Origin: Parapedobacter pyrenivorans
GTDB taxonomy: Bacteria; Bacteroidota; Bacteroidia; Sphingobacteriales; Sphingobacteriaceae
Assembly (NCBI RefSeq): GCF_014636865.1
Contig: NZ_BMER01000001.1
Span: 1,104,718 to 1,168,717, forward strand
Reading direction: 5' to 3'
Length of the DNA: 64,000 bases
How positions within the stretch are numbered: the first letter of the stretch is position 1; each line of letters begins with the position of its first letter. Positions 12,255-63,984 of the stretch are shown here, piece by piece. A model generated the notes under the pieces. That model ran no database searches. It was not told the DNA's origin and was given only the letters and a program-made list of their open reading frames with translations. Both the position numbers and the translations under genes were made by a program.

Positions 12255-12815
12255 TTATTTCACGCGCTCGATATAGTCTCCCGAACGTGTATCTACTTTT
12301 ACCTTGTCTCCCTGATTGACAAAAAGGGGCACTTTAATCTCAACACCTGTTTCTACCGTGGCGCTTTTCAACGCATTTGTTGACGTATCGCCTTTCACGG
12401 CAGGTTCAGTATAAGTTATCTCTAATTCTACAGTTGTAGGGGCCTGTGCCATAATCGGTTCCTCACTCTCCATCGCGACCAGCACCTGCATACCCTCTTT
12501 CAAAAAACGTGCCGAACTCCCGAAAAGATGCTTCGGGATATTGAATTGTTCGAACGTATTGTTATCCATAACAACGAACGTATCCCCATCTTCGTAGAGG
12601 TACTGATAATCATTGGTTTCAACGCGCGCAATTTCTACTTCTTCATCCGTACGGAACCGGTATTCTACGAGTTTTCCGGTTTTCACATTACGCATTTTGG
12701 CTTGGTAAAATGCACGTAGATTGCCGGGGGTGCGATGAATGTACTCATCAACAGACACTAATTCGCCGTTGAAGCGCAAGATATTGCCGTTTTTTACGTC
12801 TGAAGCTTTGGCCAT
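12255..12815 (-). CDS. efp: Translation elongation factor P
   Basis: The 186-residue protein has the three-domain EF-P layout and begins MAKASDVKNG. EF-P enters the ribosomal E site to relieve stalling at polyproline. At the tip of domain I, where E. coli has PGKGQAF with the modified Lys34, this protein reads PGNLRAF (30-36). The lysine position is therefore Asn32, with Arg two residues later. This is neither the EpmA-lysylated nor the standard rhamnosylated-Arg form, and no modification gene is visible here. It is a single gene with its own terminator. Confidence 0.96.
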   Translation of the reverse strand: MAKASDVKNGNILRFNGELVSVDEYIHRTPGNLRAFYQAKMRNVKTGKLVEYRFRTDEEVEIARVETNDYQYLYEDGDTFVVMDNNTFEQFNIPKHLFGSSARFLKEGMQVLVAMESEEPIMAQAPTTVELEITYTEPAVKGDTSTNALKSATVETGVEIKVPLFVNQGDKVKVDTRSGDYIERVK

Positions 12816-63503: not shown

Positions 63504-63522
63504 GATGCATATAATATGCATC
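63504..63522. repeat. Boundary palindrome of the tRNA-GIY-YIG unit
   Basis: GATGCATAT-A-ATATGCATC is a perfect 9-bp inverted repeat. Its right arm overlaps the first seven bases of direct repeat copy A. Confidence 0.7.
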
Positions 63523-63591
63523 GGTTTAAAAAAGGAACACCCGCCGAAGGGCGGGTGTTTGTGGGAGCTACTGGGTTCGAACCAGTGACCC
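63516..63591 (-). repeat. 76-bp direct repeat, copy A (tRNA-Val 3' half plus terminator)
   Basis: It is identical base for base to 63864-63939. It contains ATGCATC, the terminator hairpin and the acceptor/T-arm half of tRNA-Val. Confidence 0.95.
63528..63559 (-). terminator. Rho-independent terminator, copy A
   Basis: On the minus strand AACACCCGCC-CTTC-GGCGGGTGTT forms a 10-bp stem with a 4-nt loop, followed after CC by six T. Confidence 0.9.
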
Positions 63592-63632
63592 TCCCGACAG
63601 TATGTCGGGATGCTCTGAGCCAGCTAAGTTCC
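63562..63632 (-). pseudogene. Defective tRNA-Val copy with palindromic anticodon arm
   Basis: The 3' half (acceptor strand, T arm) is identical to the intact tRNA-Val gene at 63910-63984. The anticodon arm is replaced by TCCCGACAGTATGTCGGGA (63592-63610), a perfect 8-bp palindrome whose 3-nt loop reads TAC on the tRNA strand, the Val anticodon. The D arm lacks five bases (one AGCTC unit). The 5' acceptor strand is degenerate (GGAAC for GGGAGC) and cannot pair properly. It should not be a functional tRNA. Confidence 0.85.
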
Positions 63633-63869
63633 TGCGATTAGATTTTCCACCATTCTTCGGCTCTTCCATGATTTTATTTCACGTTCGCGGGCCATTGCCG
63701 CAGTCTTGGAAGTGATGGCTTCGTGGTATACCAAGTGCCAATCGTCGGCTTTTCCGGTGAAGCCCCTGTGCTGGGAATTGTGGCGCCTGAGCCGTTGAAG
63801 AATGTCCTTGCATGCGCCGATGTAGTAGCGGTCGAGCCTCGTCGAATAGATGATATACAGGTAATGCAT
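63624..63869 (-). CDS. Small GIY-YIG endonuclease embedded in duplicated tRNA-Val sequence
   Basis: The 81-residue protein is a stand-alone GIY-YIG nuclease domain of the UPF0213/YhbQ type. The GIY motif reads YII (5-7), the YIG motif YIG (16-18), catalytic Arg26 is in DILQRLRRHN and metal Glu64 in REREIKSW. The start codon lies inside direct repeat copy B, 7 bp past the tRNA terminator's T-run. The stop TAG is formed by the tRNA D-arm junction of the defective copy. All catalytic residues look intact. No promoter is seen apart from read-through from the tRNA. Confidence 0.88.
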   Translation of the reverse strand: MHYLYIIYSTRLDRYYIGACKDILQRLRRHNSQHRGFTGKADDWHLVYHEAITSKTAAMAREREIKSWKSRRMVENLIAGT

Positions 63870-63939
63870 CGGTTTAAAAAAGGAACACCCGCCGAAGGGC
63901 GGGTGTTTGTGGGAGCTACTGGGTTCGAACCAGTGACCC
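63864..63939 (-). repeat. 76-bp direct repeat, copy B (3' half of intact tRNA-Val plus terminator)
   Basis: It is identical to 63516-63591; the copies are 348 bp apart start to start and enclose the GIY-YIG gene. Confidence 0.95.
63876..63907 (-). terminator. Rho-independent terminator of tRNA-Val, copy B
   Basis: The same 10-bp stem, CTTC loop and six-T run as copy A; it starts just past the discriminator base of the intact tRNA. Confidence 0.92.
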
Positions 63940-63984
63940 CCTGCTTGTAAGGCAGGTGCTCTGAACCAGCTGAGCTAAGCTCCC
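63910..63984 (-). tRNA. tRNA-Val (anticodon TAC)
   Basis: The 75-nt cloverleaf on the minus strand has acceptor GGGAGCT/AGCTCCC, D arm GCTC/GAGC, anticodon stem CCTGC/GCAGG with loop CTTACAA (anticodon TAC), T arm ACTGG/CCAGT with loop TTCGAAC, and discriminator A. CCA is not encoded. It is the intact partner of the defective copy downstream. Confidence 0.97.

Follow-up and report, generated by a model that had tools for sequence, protein, structure and literature searches.

A GIY-YIG nuclease gene and palindrome-marked partial tRNA copies beside tRNA genes of Bacteroidota: a recurrent and apparently undescribed element, probably of the free-standing homing-endonuclease kind

The tRNA-Val locus of Parapedobacter pyrenivorans

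Here we focus on a tRNA-Val gene of Parapedobacter pyrenivorans (GCF_014636865.1) that is followed by a small GIY-YIG nuclease gene and by a broken copy of the tRNA itself. It lies at the end of the window, by which we mean the whole stretch of 64,000 nucleotides that was analysed (NZ_BMER01000001.1, positions 1,104,718-1,168,717 of the forward strand). Read on the minus strand, an intact tRNA-Val(UAC) is succeeded by its terminator, an 81-amino-acid GIY-YIG open reading frame (ORF), a tRNA-Val remnant and a second, identical terminator (Table 1). This order had been recognised in an earlier sequence-only reading and is confirmed by ARAGORN, Rfam, Pfam and the sequence. The two 76-bp direct repeats noted at the time are indeed identical, and the repeat finder gives a wider repeat of 103 nt at 88%. 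Together with related loci, it represents a real and recurrent element on tRNA genes that includes a GIY-YIG nuclease; it is apparently undescribed and probably a variety of free-standing homing endonuclease.

The ORF starts 39 bp behind the uninterrupted tRNA-Val and 6 nt past the T run of the first terminator; it is a gene between genes, outside an intron or intein, and an Rfam scan of this locus found no intron family. Its stop codon falls within the D-arm of the remnant. The remnant aligns locally to positions 14-76 of the intact tRNA-Val with a perfect 3' part, and the same scan gave no tRNA match there. The palindrome that stands in the remnant belongs to a pattern, TCCCGA-N0-10-TCGGGA, found twice in the window against 0.03 expected; the other occurrence is at 12518-12538, where ARAGORN finds no tRNA. 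A second palindrome-marked copy is located 6-59 bases past the end of the window, between the tRNA promoter and the intact tRNA, and consists of the tRNA 5' half, TCCCGACATACAGTCGGGA, seven further tRNA bases and a spacer. In its genome, the tRNA-Val of the window is the sole full-length match at E ≤ 1e-10 and the nuclease gene is the single one of its kind at E ≤ 1. Between the two tRNA copies, all other ORFs of at least 50 amino acids overlap the GIY-YIG frame and there is no site-specific recombinase.

Table 1. Features of the tRNA-Val locus, in positions of the window
Feature	Positions	Strand	Basis or remark
Intact tRNA-Val, anticodon UAC	63909-63984	-	ARAGORN; Rfam tRNA 71.6 bits
Terminator of the intact tRNA: 24-nt hairpin (63884-63907) and T run	63876-63907	-	Sequence, repeat finder
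GIY-YIG nuclease ORF, 81 amino acids, catalytic domain only (residues 1-71)	63624-63869	-	ORF list; Pfam PF01541, E 1.9e-16
tRNA-Val remnant: degenerate 5' part, palindrome for anticodon stem-loop, intact 3' part	~63561-63630	-	Sequence; local alignment
Perfect palindrome TCCCGACATACTGTCGGGA	63592-63610	.	Replaces the 17-nt anticodon stem-loop, tRNA positions 29-45
Second terminator copy: hairpin (63536-63559) and T run	63528-63559	-	Sequence, repeat finder
76-bp direct repeat, copy 1: tRNA 3' part, terminator, into ORF start	63864-63939	-	Read from sequence
76-bp direct repeat, copy 2: remnant 3' part, terminator	63516-63591	-	Read from sequence

Recurrence and isotype match

Relatives of the window protein occur at E ≤ 1e-8 in 63 of the 151 genomes of its family. 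A profile of alignment A1 matched at E ≤ 1e-7 in 249 of the 395 genomes of a phylum-wide sample, with at most 13 candidates scored per genome, a figure that overstates the tRNA-linked genes to an uncertain extent because a subfamily without tRNA neighbours (L216, L220, L221) also matches. Among the matches listed, loci were gathered by similarity to the window protein or to A1; 60 were hand-picked at about one per genome, and another set was chosen partly for holding several copies. With 24 of the 180 loci dropped as duplicates or unrelated own-genome matches, the analysed set comprised 241 ORFs or fragments at 156 loci (L019 and L048, apparently from the same genome, were both kept). These make up 158 arrays, of which 153 were testable and five were dropped for short downstream sequence.

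An intact tRNA gene is found within 250 bp upstream of the nuclease, on the same strand and at a median distance of 50 bp, in 122 of the 153 arrays, which agrees with the earlier suggestion that the unit may be widespread. A significant tRNA remnant follows downstream in 108 of these 122, and in 102 cases it best matches the isotype of that upstream tRNA, compared with a mean of 15.2 and a maximum of 28 for permuted isotype pairs. The test was made with a tRNA library cleaned of remnants that ARAGORN calls tRNAs; the uncleaned library gave 86 concordant pairs out of 106. Twelve isotypes are represented upstream (Val 28, Asn 20, Phe 17, Asp 16, Ala 12, Gly 11, Leu 6, Met 5, Arg 4, and Thr, Pro and Lys 1 each). 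Of the 31 arrays in which no tRNA lies upstream, 26 have one, or a remnant, on the downstream side. When 20 weaker matches (E ~3e-11 to 1e-8) were hand-picked, 17 lay by a tRNA or remnant at distances up to ~440 bp, not all of these remnants being significant, and the other three were the tRNA-less L216, L220 and L221. Chance does not account for the arrangement seen in the window: it is found again at related loci, where same-isotype remnants greatly outnumber those in the permutations.

ARAGORN calls some marked remnants tRNAs of other isotypes (Tyr-ata, Phe-aaa, Leu-taa, Gln-ttg and Stop-tta, at L019, L023, L024, L025, L032 and L075), a possible source of false tRNA annotations.

A tree of 134 nuclease ORFs gave a similar picture. 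Isotype labels need 24 changes on it, where the minimum is 13 and shuffled labels need 87.8 on average (0 of 200 shuffles as low); the tree is built on few columns, with many weak forks. Where the upstream tRNA was lacking, the label was taken from the remnant, and for L089 the label Leu was assigned manually. The nearest other ORF shares the isotype in 116 of 130 cases, a number helped by a few near-identical rows. On this tree, the nucleases form isotype-specific clades. An old tandem tRNA array with an unrelated nuclease is ruled out by the same-isotype remnants and the isotype clades. Neither of the two outcomes that the sequence-only reading had named as refutations, such an array with the nuclease inserted elsewhere or an arrangement present in no other genome, was encountered.

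Filled and empty sites

The same reading had proposed a comparison with strains having an empty tRNA-Val site. Among nine genomes of the genus, the site is clean in three (G078, G028 and G045, the last with partial synteny only). It carries the element in the window's own genome, G093 and G068, and probably in G057, where the contig ends inside the ORF. Only 5'-side remnants are present in G087 and G003, the G003 contig ending at the terminator. The neighbouring NtrC-like gene supports synteny well in seven of the nine genomes; it does so over a short stretch only in G045 and has no match within the DNA fetched for G068. As the two empty genomes included in a tree of the neighbouring regulator gene (seven genomes of the genus) group together, loss of the element and its never having been gained are not told apart. 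Away from the tRNA-Val locus of G087, a 50-bp copy of the tRNA-Val 3' part (positions 27-76, 98% identical) was observed (L191, G087:C23:243558-243607), which could be an attachment site or a stray remnant.

In another genus, at least 30 loci have one identical tRNA-Phe, and 23 of the 30 listed share upstream synteny. The 22 listed syntenic loci that are readable downstream (two of them over only 325 and 455 bp) comprise one filled site, L257, and 21 empty ones; the element-bearing copy of G315 (L095) lies outside those 30. The filled L257 is 86% identical to the empty L256 over 1.5 kb upstream, and both of its terminator copies equal the terminator of the empty relative L255, so that the terminator copies may be duplicated host sequence. 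The sequence-only reading had proposed a mobile unit of nuclease gene, tRNA 3' half and terminator that inserts behind tRNA genes. A unit that sits behind tRNA genes, recurs in many genomes, leaves the tRNA intact and is missing from the same site in relatives is borne out, but the terminators of L257 and L255 leave it unestablished that the element carries the tRNA 3' half and terminator with it.

Nucleases beside tRNA-Met in different classes are 66-70% identical, and the tRNA-Val nucleases of the window's genus are 57-71% identical to that of the window (the value of 57% comes from a fragment). That nucleases of different classes are as alike as those within one genus suggests horizontal transfer, which the protein comparison supports but does not prove.

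Tandem arrays and 5'-side copies

At least two ORFs or ORF fragments are present in 47 of the 153 arrays, and many tandem units measure ~340-390 bp; G112 has eight nuclease copies, seven of them spaced 358 bp. A marked copy on the 5' side of the tRNA was called in 36 of 120 arrays, five of which are natural stems of duplicate intact tRNAs, so a 5'-side partial copy is present in about a quarter of arrays (48 of 127 by a looser count). The most extended example comes from G003, of the same genus, where seven tandem marked tRNA-Val 5' halves, mostly in 78-bp units, stand between the promoter and the intact tRNA (L189, ~950-1500). Mirror forms also occur: in L230, L171, L168, L142 and L160 the ORF stands on the 5' side of the intact tRNA and follows a 5' fragment with a palindrome, and in L138 and L211 an ORF lies 5' of an intact tRNA-Pro. 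Within ~1 kb downstream of the tRNA-Val of L061 (JAGOJO010000081.1), between that tRNA and the GIY-YIG gene, there are tandem mini-units of ~110 bp without an ORF, each a marked tRNA 3' part plus terminator, which look like non-autonomous copies.

Such arrays raise the alternative that there is local amplification only, whereby the nuclease would duplicate its own neighbourhood, as SegB does in T6, leaving the partial tRNAs as debris with no movement from cell to cell. Apart from the SegB precedent and the regular unit lengths, this is favoured by the 3' flanks, whose likeness is much greater inside a locus (mean score 0.70, n = 72) than when different loci of the same isotype are compared (0.25, n = 324), and by the two L257 terminators matching that of the empty relative. 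It is at odds, however, with one site being filled and empty within a genus and with the nuclease identity across classes, and duplication alone leaves the palindrome unexplained. We regard this alternative as unlikely, if still worth keeping in mind.

The nuclease

The window protein matches Pfam PF01541 with 60.5 bits, the curated cut-off being 22.6. Among 134 full-length ORFs, Y5 is conserved in 132, Y16 in 134, G18 in 131, R26 in 133 and E62 in 134; these residues (Tyr, Tyr, Gly, Arg and Glu) are what we take to be the catalytic set of the GIY-YIG superfamily. K66 is kept in all 134 and H30 in 133. For 106 pairs at 62-98% identity, the ratio of nonsynonymous to synonymous substitution rates (dN/dS) could be read in the 29 with unsaturated synonymous sites, where it is 0.05-0.21 and indicates that the family is under purifying selection. 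Nearest by sequence among solved structures are UPF0213 proteins and SLX1 (1zg2, 1ywl, 7wme), and five of the 23 members of A1 weakly match the NCBIfam model of group I intron endonucleases (best E 8.4e-5).

The window ORF has no room for a promoter of its own behind the terminator. A terminator-like hairpin occupies the gap between tRNA and ORF in 85 of 96 arrays, and family-wide the start codon lies a median of 16 nt (0-80) past the first T run. Expression of the nuclease is presumed to be at a low level, by read-through of the tRNA terminator.

The palindromes

Palindromes with tRNA remnant at their borders were called in 100 of the 122 arrays that have a tRNA upstream, a few of these calls being natural remnant stems or terminators (e.g., L083, L031, L026, L089). 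The left border is well matched in 92; the palindrome takes the form YCC...GGR in 81 of them and contains CCCGA...TCGGG in 69. Where both borders could be mapped (n = 77), the replaced length is 17 nt in 20, 5 nt in 20, 8 nt in 14 and 10 nt in 6. The 17-nt cases replace a whole anticodon or T stem-loop, except for L083, which is the remnant's own T stem; the 5-nt replacements are mostly in the T-loop and the 8-nt ones in the T arm of Asp and Gly. In the 91 remnants, out of 108, whose 3' end could be placed, perfect arms of at least 6 are found in 84, compared with 29 of the 91 intact tRNAs, and the mean longest arm is 7.16 in remnants, 5.80 in intact tRNAs and 4.43 in shuffled remnants. The place of the palindrome clusters on the nuclease tree (21 changes vs. 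43.4 shuffled, 81 rows). Some partial copies, at L074, L085, L053 and L077, have two palindromes at different arms.

Hairpins of this kind could also be taken for signs of an RNA-level system, in which tRNA or its processing would be the target of the nuclease or of the palindromic tRNA fragments, for instance through a tRNA-cutting toxin and uncuttable decoys or through regulatory hairpins. The 5'-side partial copies sit between promoter and tRNA, the 5'-side copy of the window's tRNA folds better than all 200 of its shuffles, and the frequent exact replacement of whole stem-loops (the 17-nt class) would suit such a role. Against it, the 3'-side remnant of the same locus has a degenerate 5' part and is not matched by the Rfam tRNA model, the known GIY-YIG enzymes, to our knowledge, cut DNA, and the solved sequence relatives are UPF0213 proteins and SLX1, a branched-DNA nuclease. 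An RNA-level system strikes us as distinctly unlikely.

A further possibility is that the palindrome itself is the mobile item, a repeat like repetitive extragenic palindromes that lands in spare tRNA copies, with the GIY-YIG gene as a bystander. Its best support is that the palindrome pattern exceeds its reversed control in nine of ten hand-picked element-bearing genomes (e.g., 83 vs. 0), counts that include the elements' own copies and any terminators of that form. The excess is, however, slight in the window's genome (8 vs. 2, two of the 8 being from this locus) and absent in G062 (6 vs. 6), although both bear the element, and the mapped palindromes occupy discrete tRNA positions. We consider this possibility very improbable. 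A genome-wide repeat as source of the palindrome in the window's genome was rejected on the 8 vs. 2 count. In G315, G370, G296 and G437, YCCCGA-N0-7-TCGGGR was counted 39-83 times and its reversed control 0-2 times.

A proposed mechanism and its weak points

The reading that we favour, and hold to be probable, is that of a free-standing homing-endonuclease-like element living on tRNA genes. At the level of sequence comparison, its anatomy, isotype specificity, filled and empty sites, arrays and purifying selection can be taken as established. The sequence-only reading had missed the palindrome, the partial copies upstream of the tRNA, the tandem arrays, the forms on the 5' side and the nuclease clades that are specific to an isotype. 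According to the mechanism that we propose, the nuclease would be made at a low level via terminator read-through and would cut its tRNA gene in an unoccupied chromosome, whereupon recombinational repair from the occupied copy would install the ORF and a partial tRNA copy beside a complete tRNA. The host would survive because one complete tRNA remains, whereas recombination between marked copies that lost the element would leave a dead tRNA. The partial copies would persist because the palindrome destroys their cut site. Renewed cutting of the intact tRNA, repaired from the flanking repeats, could then give rise to tandem arrays, losses and near-identical terminators.

Several observations weigh against this favoured reading. 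No significant remnant was found in 14 of the 122 arrays with an upstream tRNA. Of the 108 remnants, six are closest to a different isotype (at Ala, Pro, Lys, Phe and two Leu loci, several being isotypes with few library rows), and both tRNA and remnant are missing from five of the 153 arrays. An exact copy of the marked pattern of Val type is present in 17 of the 151 family genomes, yet five of these (G003, G013, G103, G118 and G128) lack a nuclease match in the search of the family, which implies that marked copies can outlive the gene or its assembly. The protein, whose cutting of DNA is presumed, is small (~80 amino acids), with no DNA-binding domain besides GIY-YIG in Pfam. Clustering of the palindrome's place hardly exceeds the isotype effect (22 of 300 within-isotype shuffles were as low), and at some loci of Gly, Asp and Leu the palindrome sits in one arm of the 5'-side copy and in another arm of the 3'-side copy, a difference for which a single cut site does not account. 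Finally, the tRNA-Val of the empty G078 is identical to the intact tRNA-Val of the window, so that any cutting by the nuclease of the tRNA beside it has to be tolerated, or held in check by a means not seen here.

A bolder version of the homing-endonuclease reading is offered only tentatively, as we judge it to fall somewhat short of probable. It holds that these are phylum-wide minimal elements, each an ~80-amino-acid nuclease with palindrome-closed, tRNA-derived ends, whose lineages have specialised per isotype and hold essential tRNA genes hostage. With the working tRNA inside the repeats and the outer copies dead and cut-immune, loss of the element would endanger the host.

If the favoured reading is right, the tRNA genes of a major bacterial phylum are a standing target of a nuclease family whose role, within the literature searched, is undescribed. 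The family would offer a natural set of isotype-specific tRNA-gene cutters sharing one fold and would explain some pseudo-tRNA calls and tandem tRNA fragments. The persistence of a selfish nuclease beside an uncut essential target would also become directly testable.

Comparison with known systems

No recognisable description of this arrangement was met in the literature searched, which covered few subscription papers, so absence from print is not implied. In the accessible text of PMC1564403, the words Bacteroid, Cytophaga, COG2827 and UPF0213 do not appear. Weak matches numbered 1 in the phage collection and 10 in the plasmid collection, none of them from Bacteroidota.

UPF0213 and SLX1 resemble the window protein as its nearest solved sequences, and three weaker Bacteroidota matches (L216, L220 and L221) belong to a separate small GIY-YIG subfamily in the same host family, with a motif like IYILTN...LYxGVTxDL and no tRNA neighbours. 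Group I introns with homing endonucleases in tRNA genes likewise tie a homing nuclease to a tRNA gene, but here the tRNA is uninterrupted and the nuclease lies outside it. Islands that integrate into tRNA genes by a tyrosine recombinase share the complete and partial tRNA copies flanking an insert (PMC9897764), whereas the window's element has no integrase, on which ground an island was rejected, and differs further in its insert of a few hundred bp, palindromic partial copy and tandem units. Partial tRNA genes are attributed in that source to integrating elements or to the activity of clustered regularly interspaced short palindromic repeats (CRISPR), and its accessible part does not use the term GIY-YIG.

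The closest known system is SegB of phages T4/T6. The segB gene is located between tRNA-Arg and tRNA-Ile (PMC2988022), and in the part of PMC13096335 available, SegB is described as cutting inside tRNA genes, with the motif RAWTSGAAC at 23 of 83 sites, and as being without preference among tRNA isotypes. It is further reported to drive tandem amplification of tRNA-Tyr with truncated segB and to involve microhomology of the 5' end of the tRNA with the 3' end of segB (PMC13096335). There are several points of likeness: a free-standing GIY-YIG gene stands among tRNA genes; cutting inside tRNA genes would be common to both; tRNA and nuclease sequences are amplified in tandem; RAWTSGAAC on the other strand reads, by our interpretation, as the T-loop, a region marked in many of the remnants described here; and the microhomology of tRNA and nuclease recalls the overlap of ORF and remnant. 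SegB is, however, borne by phages, while the present elements reside in bacterial genomes across many Bacteroidota families, encode nucleases of ~80 amino acids and are isotype-specific. Their remnants are also marked by palindromes, a word stem (palindrom) that does not occur in the accessible text of PMC13096335 (2026). Should the favoured reading hold, the elements beside the tRNA genes of Bacteroidota would be a bacterial counterpart to SegB-driven amplification.
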